Part shown: piece after piece, positions 30,885-36,482 of the stretch
Layout: each line of letters begins with the position of its first letter
How positions within the stretch are numbered: the stretch's first letter is position 1
Assembly (NCBI GenBank): GCA_024649995.1
Contig: JANKMX010000003.1
Coordinates: forward strand, 1-56,585
Source: Gudongella sp.
GTDB taxonomy: Bacteria > Bacillota > Clostridia > Tissierellales > Tissierellaceae
Direction: 5' to 3'
DNA: 56,585 nucleotides
Translations under genes and position numbers: made by a program
Notes under the pieces: model-generated
Seen by the model: only the letters and a program-made list of their open reading frames with translations
Databases searched by the model: none
What the model was told of the DNA's origin: nothing

Positions 30885-31760
30885 TCAACTAAGAAGTATC
30901 TCCACAAATTTATCAGCTGCCGGAGACATGCTAACATCCTTAAGATGACAAATTCCAACGCTCCTTTCTGGAATTTCAACATTAGTACTTATCTGGAACA
31001 AGTCTTCGTTATCGACATAAAGGCCTGAATACTCCTTGACAACGAAGGCAATCCCAAGTCCTATCCTTGCCAGTTCAAGCAGGAGGTCATGCGATCCCAG
31101 TTCAATTTCTGGGGAAATACTAATACCATTTGAACCAAGAAAATTCTCAACATATTCTCTAGATTTTGACCTGGTATCCAACATAATCAATGGTATATTC
31201 TGCAATTCTTCAAACTTGATGGTCCTGTTCTTAAGATGTGAATATCCCTTCCCTGCCACTAGAATATCGTGAATTTTTGAGGTGGGAATAATCTCTAGGC
31301 TTATATCCCCTATGGGAAGATTTAATACTGCAATGTCAATTTCGCCTGATTTCAGGAGGGTAGTAAGCTCCATTGTGGTTCTATTAATAATTCTAAGTCT
31401 CACCTGAGGGTAGTTCTTGTTGAATCTTTCAAGATAATCAATCAGGTAATATCTTGCAATGGTATCCCCTACTCCTATTCTAAGCTCACCTTCATAGAGA
31501 TTCTTGCTGTCAGCAATTCTTTTTTCACCCTTTTCTATTAAATTTATACCGGCATTTACATATTCAAAGAGCAATTCTCCTTCCTTTGTCAATACTACAC
31601 CCTTTGGAGTTCTTGTAAATAGTCTGATCTTTAAGTCATTCTCCAGCTGAGTTATAATCTGGCTGACTGCTGGCTGGCTGATATAAAGCTTTTTGGCTGC
31701 TCCAGATAAGCTTTTCTCCAATGCCACCTGATTGAAAATTCTATAGGGATCTAGTTTCAT
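30885..31760 (-). CDS. LysR-family transcriptional regulator
   Basis: A 291-residue LysR regulator. The N-terminal helix-turn-helix is ALEKSLSGAAKKLYISQPAV followed by SQIITQLENDLKI. The effector domain starts at about residue 90 (GELRIGVGDTIARYYLIDYL), the periplasmic-binding-like fold. It is transcribed divergently from the cofE homologue at 31873, the classic arrangement in which a LysR protein controls the neighbouring gene. The intergenic DNA contains AT-rich inverted sequences (ACTTTAAGT, TTTACTTATATCATAAAA). AAGGAGGAGTT precedes the ATG. Confidence 0.93.
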   Translation of the reverse strand: MKLDPYRIFNQVALEKSLSGAAKKLYISQPAVSQIITQLENDLKIRLFTRTPKGVVLTKEGELLFEYVNAGINLIEKGEKRIADSKNLYEGELRIGVGDTIARYYLIDYLERFNKNYPQVRLRIINRTTMELTTLLKSGEIDIAVLNLPIGDISLEIIPTSKIHDILVAGKGYSHLKNRTIKFEELQNIPLIMLDTRSKSREYVENFLGSNGISISPEIELGSHDLLLELARIGLGIAFVVKEYSGLYVDNEDLFQISTNVEIPERSVGICHLKDVSMSPAADKFVEILLS

Positions 31761-31872
31761 ATAACTCCTCCTTATCTCCCGTATACTTATTATTTATTTT
31801 ACTTATATCATAAAATAAAATATACTTTAAGTAAAGTGATAATTAACCTATGAAATAAAGGAGAGATGCTTT

Positions 31873-33063
31873 GTGGAAAGAATGGTTGGTACTGTAGTCA
31901 GAGGATTGAGAGCACCCATTATAAAGGAAGGCGATGACATAGCTAAAATAGTAGTTGATACCGTGACAAATGCTGCATCCAGTGAAGGCTACGAAATCCA
32001 TGACAAGGACATTGTCACCATAACTGAATCGATAGTAGCAAGAGCACAGGGTAATTATGCATCAATTGATTCAATAGCAGAGGATGTGGTCAATAAGTTC
32101 GGAAACAATGAATTTGGAGTAATTTTCCCAATTCTAAGCCGAAACAGATTTGCAGTGATATTAAGAGGGTTATCAAAACGGGCGAAAAAAATATTTCTTA
32201 TGCTGAGCTACCCATCAGATGAAGTAGGCAACCACCTAGTAGACATGGACCTTGTGGATGTCAAGGGTGTCAACCCTTGGACCGACGTACTGACTGAAAA
32301 GCAATTCAGGGATTACTTTGGCTATGTGAATCATCCCTTTACTGGGGTTGACTATATAGAGTACTACAAATCAATAATGGATGAATATGAAATTGACTAT
32401 GAAATAATCTTTTCAAATAATCCTCTTACAATTCTTGATTATACCAAAAATGTAATAGCATGTGATATTCACACGAGATTCAGGACCAAGGGTCTGCTGA
32501 AGAAATACGGTGGGCAAAAGATCTACGGACTGGATGACATTCTGAATGTTCCGCTTGATGGAAATGGATACAACCAGGAGTACGGACTTCTTGGTTCAAA
32601 CAAATCCTCTGAGGATAGGATAAAGCTCTTCCCAAGGGATGGGCAACCAATTGTTGAACGAATCCAAAGTGAAATCAAGGATATCACCGGTAAAACCATA
32701 GAGGTAATGATTTATGGAGACGGTGCTTTCAAGGATCCCGTAGGAAAGATTTGGGAATTGGCCGACCCTGTGGTTTCCCCAGCGTATACAAAAGGACTTG
32801 AGGGTACACCTTCAGAGGTTAAGCTTAAGTATCTTGCAGACAATGATTTTGGTCATCTTCAAGGAGATGCACTTAAAAGAGCAATTTCGGAATATATCAG
32901 AAATAAGGACGAATCACTTGTTGGTGAAATGGTTTCTCAGGGTACAACACCAAGAAGACTTACAGACCTCATCGGATCGCTTTCTGACCTTACCTCGGGA
33001 AGCGGTGACAAGGGTACGCCAATAATCTACATTCAAGGATATTTTGATAGCTACATTAAATAA
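31873..33063 (+). CDS. coenzyme F420-0:L-glutamate ligase (CofE) homologue
   Basis: A 396-residue protein of the CofE/COG1478 family. N-terminal marks are TVVRGLRAPIIKEGDDIAKI, KDIVTITESIVARAQGNY and, later, EVMIYGDGAFKDP and TPRRLTDLIGSLSDLTSGSG. True CofE adds glutamate to F420-0; Clostridia generally lack F420, and nothing else here points to F420, so this likely acts on another substrate. The start is GTG behind AAGGAGAGATGCTTT. It is divergent from the LysR gene. Its terminator hairpin is now split from the uspA copy by the IS element. Confidence 0.75.
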   Translation: MERMVGTVVRGLRAPIIKEGDDIAKIVVDTVTNAASSEGYEIHDKDIVTITESIVARAQGNYASIDSIAEDVVNKFGNNEFGVIFPILSRNRFAVILRGLSKRAKKIFLMLSYPSDEVGNHLVDMDLVDVKGVNPWTDVLTEKQFRDYFGYVNHPFTGVDYIEYYKSIMDEYEIDYEIIFSNNPLTILDYTKNVIACDIHTRFRTKGLLKKYGGQKIYGLDDILNVPLDGNGYNQEYGLLGSNKSSEDRIKLFPRDGQPIVERIQSEIKDITGKTIEVMIYGDGAFKDPVGKIWELADPVVSPAYTKGLEGTPSEVKLKYLADNDFGHLQGDALKRAISEYIRNKDESLVGEMVSQGTTPRRLTDLIGSLSDLTSGSGDKGTPIIYIQGYFDSYIK

Positions 33064-33075
33064 GCACATGATGAA

Positions 33076-33095
33076 GGCAGCCCATTTGGGCTGCC
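33076..33095. repeat. left copy of IS target duplication (terminator hairpin)
   Basis: GGCAGCCCATTTGGGCTGCC, an 8-bp palindromic stem with loop ATTT, occurs here and at 34711-34730 in the same orientation. The repeat can be read as up to 22 bp (A on the left, T on the right). It acts as the terminator of the cofE homologue. Confidence 0.9.
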
Positions 33096-33110
33096 TGAGA
33101 TTATCGAAAA

Positions 33111-33151
33111 AATGCAGTATTTCTGGTGACTTGTTCCAGAAATACTGCATT
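33111..33151. terminator. bidirectional terminator inside the IS left end
   Basis: AATGCAGTATTTCTGG and CCAGAAATACTGCATT form a perfect 16-bp stem around a nine-base loop, with A-runs on the left and T-runs on the right, so U-tracts follow on both strands. It ends the transposase transcript and blocks read-through from the cofE side. Confidence 0.85.
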
Positions 33152-33210
33152 TTTAATATTTATCCATGCACTACCACAATATTAAGTTGTATTTTACACG
33201 ATTTGTACCA

Positions 33211-34602
33211 TTAACTTTGGATATTTTCCTGCTTATCTAGCAGTCTTGCTATCTTTTTTGCATTGTAAGCAACCCCAGTCATTAGGACTTGGGCTTTAAC
33301 TCCATGGGAACCTCTGTAATGGGCATATCTCATGCCCATCAATTCTTTCAAATCTGCAAATGCCCTTTCGATTGTTTCCTTTCGACGCTGATATAACTTC
33401 TTTCCCTTTTCGGTCTTCATAAATGACCTTACTTCATCAGCATAGTGTTCTTTTATGTGCCTTCGTATTACTCGGGTCTGATCTGGTGATATTTCTCCTG
33501 TTATGCTGCTTTCATACAGGCATTTTTCTCGTTTGGGGCAATCCTTGCATATCTCTTTGTCACTACGGTATTCCACATAACCTTGTCGTGTAGTTGTTCT
33601 GTAACTTAATTCCTTTCCTTCGAAGCAGCGATACACATCTTCCTCCGGATAGTATTCAAACCAGTATTTTGATTTCTTTCCTCTCTTTGAGGCATATCTC
33701 CTGGGACCAATCACTGGGGTAATTCCTTTGCTTGTCAATTCTTCTATTATGTCCAGATTGAAATATCCTGCATCTGCTCCTGCATATTTTGGTGATAGTT
33801 CAAGTCTTTCAAACATTTCTTCCAAGTTATCCATATATACTGTACTGTCATGAACATTTCCTGGGGTTACGTGTGCGCTTAGGAGGATATTGTTTGCACT
33901 GTCAACGGTTCCATGAATCAAATGGTAGAATCCAACTGGCTTTCTATCTCTATGCATATATCCACTGTCAGGATCCGTTTTACTGGATTTTCTAGTATGT
34001 ATTTCTGTCTTTGGTTCAGCTGGCTCAAGGGGCTTTTGACCCTTGCTGATTCTCTTATCGTTCACCAGCATTAGTAGGGATTCGTCCTCTCTAATCACCC
34101 GAACTTCTTCTATACTTTCATATTTGGAGTTGCTTGCATTGGCTTTTACATGAGTCGAATCAGTGTAGACTATTTTACCATTTACGAATCCGTGATCTAT
34201 GGCTTTTAGGACAATCTCATTGAATATGTCTTCGTATATGGTTGAATCCTTAAACCTAACTGCTCTATTGTGACTTATTGTTGAATGATCTGGTATTGGC
34301 TCTGTCAATCCATATCCAAGGAACCATCGATAGGCCATGTTGTGATGGATTGCATCTACCAACTTTTCTTCGGATCTTATTCCATCCAAGGCTTGGATTA
34401 ATGACATCTTGAAAAGAACTACAGGGTCTATGGAGGGCCTTCCCTTATCTTCTGAATAAAAGGGTTCTACAAGATCGTATATGAAATCAAAATTAATGTA
34501 TTTATCAATTTTTCTCAAGTCATGATCTTTCTTTACTAGTTGTTCAAGCATTACCAACTCCAGCTGAAGCTGCTTATTATCTTTCTTTCCTCTTGACATC
34601 AT
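33211..34602 (-). CDS. IS1182-family transposase
   Basis: A 463-residue DDE transposase. The N-terminal DUF772-type region is DLVEPFYSEDKGRPSIDPVV, followed by MAYRWFLGYGLTEPIPDHST. The catalytic core has IVYTDSTHVKANAS (first Asp), AGADAGYFNLDIIEEL (second Asp), and a C-terminal ERAFADLKELMGMRYAHYRG (Glu). A Cys-rich insert (CKDCPKREKCLY) lies between the last two, as in the family. It looks intact. The ATG at 34600-34602 follows GAGGGGTGATTTTG, and an in-frame extension to 34635 lacks a ribosome site. Confidence 0.95.
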   Translation of the reverse strand: MMSRGKKDNKQLQLELVMLEQLVKKDHDLRKIDKYINFDFIYDLVEPFYSEDKGRPSIDPVVLFKMSLIQALDGIRSEEKLVDAIHHNMAYRWFLGYGLTEPIPDHSTISHNRAVRFKDSTIYEDIFNEIVLKAIDHGFVNGKIVYTDSTHVKANASNSKYESIEEVRVIREDESLLMLVNDKRISKGQKPLEPAEPKTEIHTRKSSKTDPDSGYMHRDRKPVGFYHLIHGTVDSANNILLSAHVTPGNVHDSTVYMDNLEEMFERLELSPKYAGADAGYFNLDIIEELTSKGITPVIGPRRYASKRGKKSKYWFEYYPEEDVYRCFEGKELSYRTTTRQGYVEYRSDKEICKDCPKREKCLYESSITGEISPDQTRVIRRHIKEHYADEVRSFMKTEKGKKLYQRRKETIERAFADLKELMGMRYAHYRGSHGVKAQVLMTGVAYNAKKIARLLDKQENIQS

Positions 34603-34641
34603 CAAAATCACCCCTCTCTTATATATATTCGACAAAAAAGA

Positions 34642-34672
34642 AGAAAATCCTTTTTGCTTTAAAGGATTTTCT
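34642..34672 (-). terminator. shield terminator upstream of the transposase gene
   Basis: AGAAAATCCTTT and AAAGGATTTTCT form a 12-bp stem, followed on the minus strand by TCTTTTTTG. It lies between the IS end and the transposase start, so it would stop transcripts entering from uspA. Such protection against impinging transcription is known for several IS families. Confidence 0.75.
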
Positions 34673-34710
34673 AAAAAAATATATATTTGTTTACTTTTTC
34701 GATAGACTCA

Positions 34711-34730
34711 GGCAGCCCATTTGGGCTGCC
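34711..34730. repeat. right copy of IS target duplication (terminator hairpin)
   Basis: The second copy of GGCAGCCCATTTGGGCTGCC with the same loop orientation as the copy at 33076-33095. Its last base is shared with the uspA stop codon, so it serves as the uspA terminator. Confidence 0.9.
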
Positions 34731-35155
34731 TATTTCACTACCAAAACTGATTTATTTGCATAATTGAGGACCTTGTTGGATACACTTCCAAGCAAAGATC
34801 TGGCTTGAACATTTGTACCTCTTCTTCCCATTACAATAAGGTCATAGTTTTCATCTTCGGCAATATCAATTATTGTTTCAGCCACTTCACCGTTTCTAAG
34901 GAGCGTATTAACCTTCCCAGGATATTCCTCCAACAGTTTCCTGGACTCCTCCAGAATCTTCTTGCCTTTCTCTATGTTTTTCTTGCTCAATTCAGATGTG
35001 TAATCCTGTTCTATTATATAAGGATTGTCCCTTTGGCTATTTACTATGGTTAAGATAAGTATTTCACTGTCATTCAGCAGACCTATCTCCTTGGCCTTGT
35101 TCAATGCCTTTACCGAATCCTCAGATCCATCGACAGGTACCAATATTCTTTTCAT
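34730..35155 (-). CDS. universal stress protein (UspA family)
   Basis: A 141-residue Usp-fold protein. It begins MKRILVPVDGSEDSVKALNKA and carries the ATP-binding signature G-x2-G-x9-G-S in GRRGTNVQARSLLGS near the C-terminus, so it is of the nucleotide-binding type. Its cellular role is generic stress survival, with no specific partner visible. It is a single-gene unit, with a terminator hairpin overlapping its stop codon and another (35250-35274) upstream that closes the peptidase operon. Before the IS insertion it was convergent with the cofE homologue. Confidence 0.92.
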   Translation of the reverse strand: MKRILVPVDGSEDSVKALNKAKEIGLLNDSEILILTIVNSQRDNPYIIEQDYTSELSKKNIEKGKKILEESRKLLEEYPGKVNTLLRNGEVAETIIDIAEDENYDLIVMGRRGTNVQARSLLGSVSNKVLNYANKSVLVVK

Positions 35156-35249
35156 CTTAAACGCCCCCTGTAAATTTTATTTTCTCCCTTATCATATACC
35201 CTTATCATCCTATTAATATACCAATTTGACTGATTTATTTACATAAATG

Positions 35250-35274
35250 ACCCAGTGTACCTGATACACTGGGT
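35250..35274 (-). terminator. terminator after the ArgE/DapE-like gene
   Basis: ACCCAGTGTA and TACACTGGGT form a 10-bp stem with a five-base loop, followed on the minus strand by CATTTATG. It ends the unit that includes the AGCS symporter and the peptidase gene. Confidence 0.75.
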
Positions 35275-35282
35275 CTCTTTAA

Positions 35283-36482
35283 TTACTTTACCAGATTCTT
35301 TTCCAGGAATCTATATATGACTTCTGCTGTCTGTACCACACTGCTTAAATTTACATATTCATCTGCGGTATGGTAGTTTTCTCCACTTGGGCCGAACACA
35401 AATGTTGGAATACCAGCCCTGGTGCCGAGATAATTGAAGTCTCCGATGCTTGAAAAGTATTCAATTTCTCCTGGCGATCCAGTCACTTCATCAATACTTT
35501 CCCTCAGTTTTATGGTAAACGGATTATCCTCCTCCACTATATATGGATCAAAGCCACCGTTTAAGGAATGTGGGGAATCTCTGAACTTAACCTGGATTTC
35601 GGCTTGAATTCCAGCTCTCTTGGCTGCATCCATGACCTCCTGTACCAGGTATTCTCGGGACTCTCCTCTAACTACGTGTCTGAAGACTGTAAACACTGCC
35701 TTTTCTGCTACGCTGCAGGCCGCACCACCGCCATTCATTCCAATTATACATACGTCTCCGTGTCCAAGCTTGTCATCCTTCAGGGTCTCTGTCTGCTTCA
35801 GCTCCATTATAAGCCTGGAAGCCTCCACAATGGCACTAAGGCCCTTTTTAGGGTTAGCGGCATGCGCTGCCTTGCCTTTTAGGAAAACCGAGTAATTCCA
35901 GCCTCCTCTTGCGCCGAGACACAATACTGGGAAGGGTTTGCCAACAAAGCCGCTGCTGGGTTCAGGGACAATCGCTGCATCTACATTATCTGTAATCCCA
36001 TCAAGGATCAATGCATCGGTGCCAAGGCCATAGGGACCTTCCTCATCTGATACGATAGTATAGACTATCTCTCCTGCAAAGCTTTGGTGGTTTTTCTTAA
36101 AGGCTTCAACAGCCATCATTATCGCAGCAACCCCTGATTTCATGTCCAGTGCTCCAAGTCCATAGAGCTTGTCTCCATCCCTCACAGGTTCTGTCGGATC
36201 CGTTGCCCAGTCCTGAGTCTTCTCCACAGTATCCACATGACCATTCAACAGTATCCTTGGACCCTCCCGATCACCTGTAAGTCTACCTACAACATTTATT
36301 CCATTGTACTTTAAAATCCTGTCCTCGGAGTAGCGATGGTAATGGGCAGGGATATCCCTGTCATTAAACCATTTCAAAACGTACTCCATGGCATTCTCTT
36401 CCTTTAAATACGGACTATATATGGAGATGAGCTCAGATAAAAGCTTCTCGAGTTTTTCCTTATCAATCGCACTCTGCATCAT
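35283..36482 (-). CDS. M20-family metallopeptidase (ArgE/DapE/CPG2-like)
   Basis: A 399-residue two-zinc amidohydrolase. Metal sites: ILLNGHVDTVEKT (His, Asp), YGLGALDMKSGVAAIMM (bridging Asp), VSDEEGPYGLGTD (Glu-Glu catalytic pair), a later PEPSSG, and a final His in GENYHTADE. It deacylates N-acyl amino acids or cleaves small peptides; YgeY/ArgE-like roles are possible. It lies downstream of the AGCS symporter, suggesting the symporter supplies, or exports, its amino acid. AGGAGAATGGAGA precedes the ATG. Confidence 0.9.
   Translation of the reverse strand: MMQSAIDKEKLEKLLSELISIYSPYLKEENAMEYVLKWFNDRDIPAHYHRYSEDRILKYNGINVVGRLTGDREGPRILLNGHVDTVEKTQDWATDPTEPVRDGDKLYGLGALDMKSGVAAIMMAVEAFKKNHQSFAGEIVYTIVSDEEGPYGLGTDALILDGITDNVDAAIVPEPSSGFVGKPFPVLCLGARGGWNYSVFLKGKAAHAANPKKGLSAIVEASRLIMELKQTETLKDDKLGHGDVCIIGMNGGGAACSVAEKAVFTVFRHVVRGESREYLVQEVMDAAKRAGIQAEIQVKFRDSPHSLNGGFDPYIVEEDNPFTIKLRESIDEVTGSPGEIEYFSSIGDFNYLGTRAGIPTFVFGPSGENYHTADEYVNLSSVVQTAEVIYRFLEKNLVK

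Follow-up and report, generated by a model that had tools for sequence, protein, structure and literature searches.

Whether a hairpin that stands on both sides of an insertion sequence belongs to the element or to the DNA that received it, and what sets the length of the duplication if it belongs to the target, are the questions raised by one locus of the window, a stretch of 56,585 nucleotides from a Gudongella genome. A 22-bp perfect direct repeat, AGGCAGCCCATTTGGGCTGCCT, occupies positions 33075-33096 and 34710-34731 of this stretch, and each of its two copies is a whole hairpin, AGGCAGCCC-ATTT-GGGCTGCCT, with a 9-bp stem and a 4-nt loop that is read in the same orientation on both sides. 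The original prediction had described this repeat as 20-22 bp long; its length could be set at 22 bp because the ends of the enclosed element were fixed from relatives that share the same ends (Tissierella L016 and L018).

An IS1182-family element between two copies of one hairpin

The sequence between the repeats is an IS1182-family element of 1613 bp on the minus strand (33097-34709), with terminal inverted repeats GAGTCTATCGAAAAA / GAGATTATCGAAAAA that match at 13 of 16 terminal bases; on the plus strand it begins with GAGATTATCGAAAAA and ends with TTTTTCGATAGACTC. Its transposase (33211-34602, minus strand) is 463 aa long without an internal stop, scores 417.7 bits against the IS1182 model NF033551, above the cut-off of 270, and matches the DDE Pfam domains PF01609 and PF13751. 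Residues D148, D277 and E412, a putative DDE catalytic triad, are among the alignment columns that are invariant across 12 relatives, and no solved structure related to the transposase by sequence was found at E 0.01. Inside the element end behind the transposase stop lies an inverted repeat (33108-33154; opposite-strand self-match, 88%) that is perhaps the element's own terminator. A terminator-like hairpin with a T-run stands ahead of the transposase gene (34642-34672, minus strand) and perhaps shields it against transcription from outside; the terminator scan that picked it up found three such sites in the region versus 1.5 expected in shuffles. There were no Rfam matches over 31700-35400 at gathering scores.

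Folded as RNA, the flanking repeat has a ΔG of -18.4 kcal/mol, which, together with the register control over relatives described below, places it beyond chance. The 20-bp core of the hairpin has no second site in the 2.55-Mb assembly with up to two mismatches allowed, and a search of the window's own genome found one copy of the element only.

The element is flanked by convergent genes. On the plus strand, a CofE-like gene with an F420-0:gamma-glutamyl ligase domain (31873-33063) ends 11 nt before the left hairpin; its product scores 191 bits against PF01996, and 45.5 and 37.6 against two cofE equivalog models with cut-offs of 274 and 180.65. On the minus strand, a universal stress protein gene (uspA; PF00582; 34730-35155) has a stop codon that shares 2 nt with the right hairpin copy. 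The original prediction made the hairpin the shared terminator of these two genes. A single hairpin lay between the convergent stops, and four other relatives (L168, L170, L171 and L173) have hairpins of different sequence with A/T tracts between the same two genes; on these grounds we infer that the window hairpin served both genes as a terminator. A reservation is that the window hairpin has no T-run and does not appear in the list of the simple terminator scan. Judged from the sequence, the insertion could plausibly be harmless to both neighbours, making the hairpin a 'safe site'.

Empty sites hold a single hairpin

In a congener (G002; L167/L210), the same two genes, at 90% and 86% amino-acid identity, are separated by one hairpin, AGGCAGCCCAATGGGCTGCCT, with no element. 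The window flanks align to this site at 80-81% DNA identity, and the two alignments overlap by 21 bp, which is one hairpin. Because this empty site has one hairpin, duplication of a single shared hairpin by the insertion is the right history of the locus. Four plasmid pairs show the same change. The flanks of the filled site overlap in the empty site by 28 bp in Bacillus pumilus (pBP-T2 filled, pBP-33-3 empty), 19 bp in B. subtilis (two empty records), 23 bp in Rhizobium (two empty records) and 20 bp in Salinivibrio, and each overlap is one complete hairpin. With the window and its congener, this makes five filled/empty pairs in which one hairpin before insertion became two after. A third Salinivibrio record (TGB4, L233), tried as an empty site, was uninformative, matching the left flank only with the right flank lost, and a search for the empty site of a Sutcliffiella copy returned only the filled record.

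These pairs rule out the hairpin as a part of the element. If the hairpins were mobile ends carried along by the element, nearly all readable element ends in the clade defined below would be expected to touch one, as they do; however, the sequence of the hairpin varies by site and the same hairpin stands alone in the empty sites, so that we regard mobile ends as next to impossible. The original prediction had called the repeat a target duplication rather than an element end, and had pointed to an empty site in a related strain and to the flanks of further copies as the places to look. Its observation is confirmed, and its interpretation is supported by the congener with a single hairpin and by copies in relatives that are flanked by duplicated hairpins differing from one to the next, rather than by one hairpin carried in every copy.

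The same cofE-like/uspA site was hit independently in G001, of the same genus, by a different and degraded element (L212, 1370-2270), which contains an IS1182/IS5-like transposase fragment; the ends of this element have no other occurrence in G001. Here the stem arms GGCGCT / AGCGCC lie outside the element and the loop region alone is duplicated (CATGAA, 6-8 bp), as in the route drawn as hypothetical pathway c by Wan 2017.

Hairpin duplication in related elements

Relatives were drawn from named genomes, from 291 genomes of the class, from 398 genomes of the phylum and from plasmids. Family matches occurred in 50 of the 291 class genomes, some of them from outside the hairpin-duplicating clade, and in 24 of the 398 phylum genomes. 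The class survey contributed 60 fetched places, the phylum survey 30 automatic loci and 15 further places, and the plasmids 13 of 383 records, with environmental hosts preferred; the places from the two genome surveys were picked by match length and copy number, their flanks being unseen at that point. The counted set comprises 72 copies of related elements, the window included, for which a single contig carries the sequence on either side.

A whole-hairpin direct repeat flanks 65 of these 72 readable copies, which represent 63 distinct insertions plus L219 and L220, with one extra base at one junction. In four others (L076, L139, L146 and L228), both ends abut hairpins that differ from each other, and these copies are probably footprints of recombination between IS copies. 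The three misses are L147, with a hairpin on the right side only and a stop in the transposase; L008, with a left hairpin, a lost right end and several stops; and L156, which is degenerate and in which no repeat was found. These 7 of 72 copies without the repeat count against a whole-hairpin rule.

Two further copies, in G003 (L214 and L215) and Eubacterium yurii (L021 and L022), have the same hairpin at both ends, and were left out of the 72 as they are split over two contigs. Copies cut by a contig end or truncated were uncounted (L007, L009, L020-L023, L037-L045, L103, L144, L145, L151, L152, L154, L155, L165, L214 and L215), as were L134 and L135, incomplete transposase matches at 35-36% identity in which no repeat was found and which are off the tree. 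Re-fetched copies are L046-L075 (automatic loci of the class survey, which largely repeat L076-L135), L100 (whose contig is as long as that of L017 and carries an identical hairpin), L110/L136, L137 and L158/L206.

In L024-L035 (11 copies from Clostridium carboxidivorans and one from C. magnum), the transposase match changes reading frame at one and the same position in 12 of 12, though the element has spread, and a programmed frameshift is possible. L101 carries one hairpin three times (472-498, 738-762 and 2274-2298 in transposase orientation), the stretch between the first two ends in an apparent IS end, and the locus perhaps records two insertions at one target.

Duplication length follows the hairpin

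DDE transposases normally produce a duplication of near-constant length that is set by the enzyme. Across the 63 distinct insertions, 22 duplication lengths occur, between 15 and 52 bp with a median of 23, and in this clade the length tracks the secondary structure of the target over a more than threefold range. For a register control, a window of the same length was slid along each reconstructed empty site and the paired outer positions were counted. A rule of 5 or more paired bases among the outer 6 held for 61 of 63 insertions at the true register, versus 0-2 of 63 at every shift of 1-12 nt, with L136 and L201 the two that fell below it; since the 63 were recognised by their repeat, this control speaks to the shape of the repeat and not to its frequency. 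For each of 64 repeats (one insertion being counted twice), at most 2 of 200 mononucleotide shuffles were as stable as the repeat itself. Among 61 asymmetric duplications, 58 are exact direct copies and none is an exact inverted copy. The two copies differ in three insertions, by two bases in L019, by one in L209 and within the loop in L136. In this last case (L136 / L110), a 35-bp duplicated hairpin has the 2-nt loop GA on the left and its reverse complement TC on the right, which suggests that duplicated hairpins are able to invert.

Cuts tend to fall 1-2 A/T bases before the first G/C, and the first base of the duplication is A in 57 of 63 insertions and another base in 6. The terminal base is unpaired in 12 of 63, and in 37 of 63 the potential stem extends beyond the duplication by 1-16 pairs, which means that some cuts fall within the longest stem that could form rather than at its foot. 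Even values are in excess among the lengths (40 of 63 insertions; Rayleigh p 0.01, uncorrected), which also show slight phasing at 10-11 (p 0.03-0.12, uncorrected).

Several of these properties bear on whether the enzyme reads the palindrome as a symmetric duplex, with a dimer sensing symmetry, a bend or an A-tract. The preference for A as first base, the A/T tracts at the feet (51 of 63, versus 14 of 63 at 60 nt distance) and the use of stems of merely 6 bp, the shortest observed (L018), would all be at home with such an enzyme. Stem sequences vary from site to site, however, and a cut distance that takes 22 values between 15 and 52 bp is unlike one rigid duplex-binding geometry, for which reason we consider double-stranded recognition improbable. 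DNA shape seems to decide the position of the cut, because the relatives duplicated hairpins of other sequence and length.

The duplicating copies form one clade

A tree was built from 77 transposases. All 36 of its rows that have a whole-hairpin repeat fall into a single group (SH-aLRT 98), whose only other members are 4 rows of hybrid or one-sided copies and 3 that a contig end interrupts, and the trait is explained by one change; the tree is a quick search with no bootstrap and with some long branches outside the group. Five G188 copies are represented by row L076, which itself lacks the repeat that the other four carry. The counted Brevibacillus copy L222 is off the tree, L008 and L156 are absent from it, and L010-L015, L036, L111, L121, L122 and L238 are absent from its final version. 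The clade has members in Bacillota and on plasmids of Rhizobium, Aminobacter, Sphingobium and Salinivibrio. Copies taken as outside the clade are L010-L015 (partial), L036, L081-L095, L099, L104-L109, L111-L133, L153, L157, L159 and L203-L205. An IS1272-type element, L236, assigned to IS1272 on account of its position next to fabI in S. haemolyticus, also falls outside, on a long branch.

Under one scoring rule, 120 of 130 junctions in the 65 clade repeat copies abut a hairpin; the 10 below threshold, with scores of 4 or 5, are in five copies. In a re-check of seven clade loci, two of which belong to the 65, 13 of 14 junctions did so. Outside the clade, the figure is 1 of 42 junctions (21 copies of five IS1182 elements), and a whole-hairpin repeat was found in none of these 21 copies. 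Four of the 21 have flanks that pair across the element at 7 or 8 of 8 positions, versus 2.6% in permuted pairs. On the sister branch, arms of at least 12 bases remain outside the element in L203 and L205; L153, of the same group, has imperfect inverted repeats around the element, and hairpin-like arms are absent around L204, also of this group. Similar outside arms were judged by eye in L036. Insertion near the hairpin apex is what L203, L205 and L036 look like.

In the clade, one hairpin precedes insertion and two follow it, and the duplication matches the hairpin, whose length sets its own. That these elements choose hairpin targets and duplicate them whole is, in our assessment, probable.

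Targets often lie behind genes

A crude ORF caller placed 15 of 51 chromosomal insertions between convergent ORFs, 25 between co-directional ORFs, 5 between divergent ORFs and 6 in an ORF, several of the last at the edge of the stretch. This caller is unreliable in G+C-rich loci, and because it misplaced L224 and L225, called in-ORF where the annotation has convergent neighbours, plasmid loci were scored from their annotation, which is incomplete according to PLSDB. Of the 12 plasmid insertions scored in this way, a set that takes in the hybrid L228, 9 are convergent, 2 co-directional and 1 divergent, and the combined count is 24 convergent versus 6 divergent (p 0.0014). In 32 of the 40 chromosomal insertions that have a gene running towards the hairpin, the stop codon of that gene lies within 60 nt. 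The hairpin is closer to the upstream stop in 17 of 25 chromosomal co-directional pairs (p 0.11), a result that is unconvincing alone.

Because most targets are close behind stop codons, each neighbour retains its own stop and a 3' hairpin, and insertion should consequently be cheap for the host. Hairpins behind genes can serve an element as landing sites of low cost. Sites behind genes are also where tolerable insertions would be expected if the element inserted at random and only insertions at terminators survived selection. Selection for harmless sites cannot, however, set the bounds of a duplication to the bounds of a hairpin, as found in the register control, and the 21 copies of five other IS1182 elements are without such a repeat; we hold survival of random insertions to be very improbable.

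Another alternative is that the target is a single-stranded hairpin, exposed while the DNA is replicated or where RNA polymerase pauses or terminates, such that structure and process together choose the site. The nearby stop codons and the A or T tracts, which resemble those of intrinsic terminators, agree with it. The orientation of the element shows no bias relative to co-directional genes (14 vs 13), the surroundings of some targets are divergent or unclear, and full duplication requires cuts on opposite strands at both feet, all of which speak against it. This explanation is compatible with most of the mechanism that we favour and differs from it in the substrate; we regard it as possible, if rather unlikely.

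Proposed mechanism

In the mechanism that we favour, the transposase would pick a DNA hairpin, that is, a palindrome, with no common stem sequence required; the two ends of the element would be joined at the two feet of the hairpin, and repair would copy the entire stem-loop to each side. The substrate may be an extruded, cruciform-like hairpin whose two 5' feet are adjacent at a four-way junction. The 3'-OH ends of the element would attack these feet and fill-in would copy the arms, as in 'pathway b' of Wan 2017. With the 5' feet side by side at the junction, a single enzyme geometry would fit arms of any length. Stems of 6 bp, as in L018, should extrude poorly, and for the cruciform as the actual substrate we see the chances as about evenly balanced. 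The clade offers many natural substrates on which cruciform recognition by a transposase could be tested.

A broader proposal, which could as easily prove wrong as right, is that IS1182 is a structure-guided family in which each clade cuts its hairpin target at its own fixed place. Cutting at the feet would duplicate the whole hairpin, as in the clade of the window element; cutting in the stem or apex would leave the arms as outer inverted repeats with the loop duplicated or lost (L036, L087, L203, L205 and L212); and a third mode would remove the hairpin, as published for IS1272. If this is true, the length of the target duplication would be set by DNA shape and not by enzyme geometry.

Comparison with known systems

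In the sections of the literature that our search covered, whole-hairpin duplication was not found stated as the rule of a clade, although a 2006 genome paper on C. novyi-NT may do so. The abstract of that paper, by Bettegowda and co-workers, reportedly contains the phrase 'new type of transposition', and may refer to hairpin duplication. Hairpin targeting by IS1182 elements is already published, as is, in the form of a hypothetical route drawn in 2017, duplication of the whole stem-loop.

The closest characterized relative is IS1272 / TnSha1, also of the IS1182 family, which uses hairpin targets without a common sequence, several of them terminators (Furi 2016, PMC4923244; Wan 2017, PMC5678879). 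The window clade shares with it the transposase family and the sequence-independent hairpin target. In the accounts given in these papers, IS1272 removes or truncates the hairpin and makes no duplication, whereas the hairpin is kept and duplicated whole in 65 of 72 copies, the window copy among them, a pattern distinct from the IS1272-type loss. Palindromic targets, known for some IS1182 members (Siguier 2015, as cited by PMC4923244 and PMC5678879), are seen here too. For ISCbo5, an ISBma2-like IS1182 element of C. botulinum group III and C. novyi, every insertion site except one is a hairpin, located where a gene ends (PMC3098183); unlike what we describe here, neither hairpin duplication nor a repeat length set by the hairpin is stated in the consulted sections of that paper.

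Repeats of 4 bp are tabulated for ISCaa15 of Amoebophilus (PMC3196728), which does not fit a hairpin-length rule, and an IS1182-family insertion in Staphylococcus epidermidis is reported with a 34-bp deletion at its site (PMC7891712). ISfinder gives direct repeats of 2-60 bp for IS1182, as cited in PMC7335449, where this variability is called extreme but receives no explanation in the passage concerned. The 22 bp of the window and the 15-52 bp of its relatives lie inside this range; hairpin length accounts for the variability within the clade, and could explain much of the spread in the family. Finally, the data resemble pathway b of Wan 2017 (PMC5678879, Fig 13), in which an attack on the 5' feet yields a second copy of the complete stem-loop: there it is presented as a hypothetical alternative, and here it has many natural examples and five filled/empty pairs.
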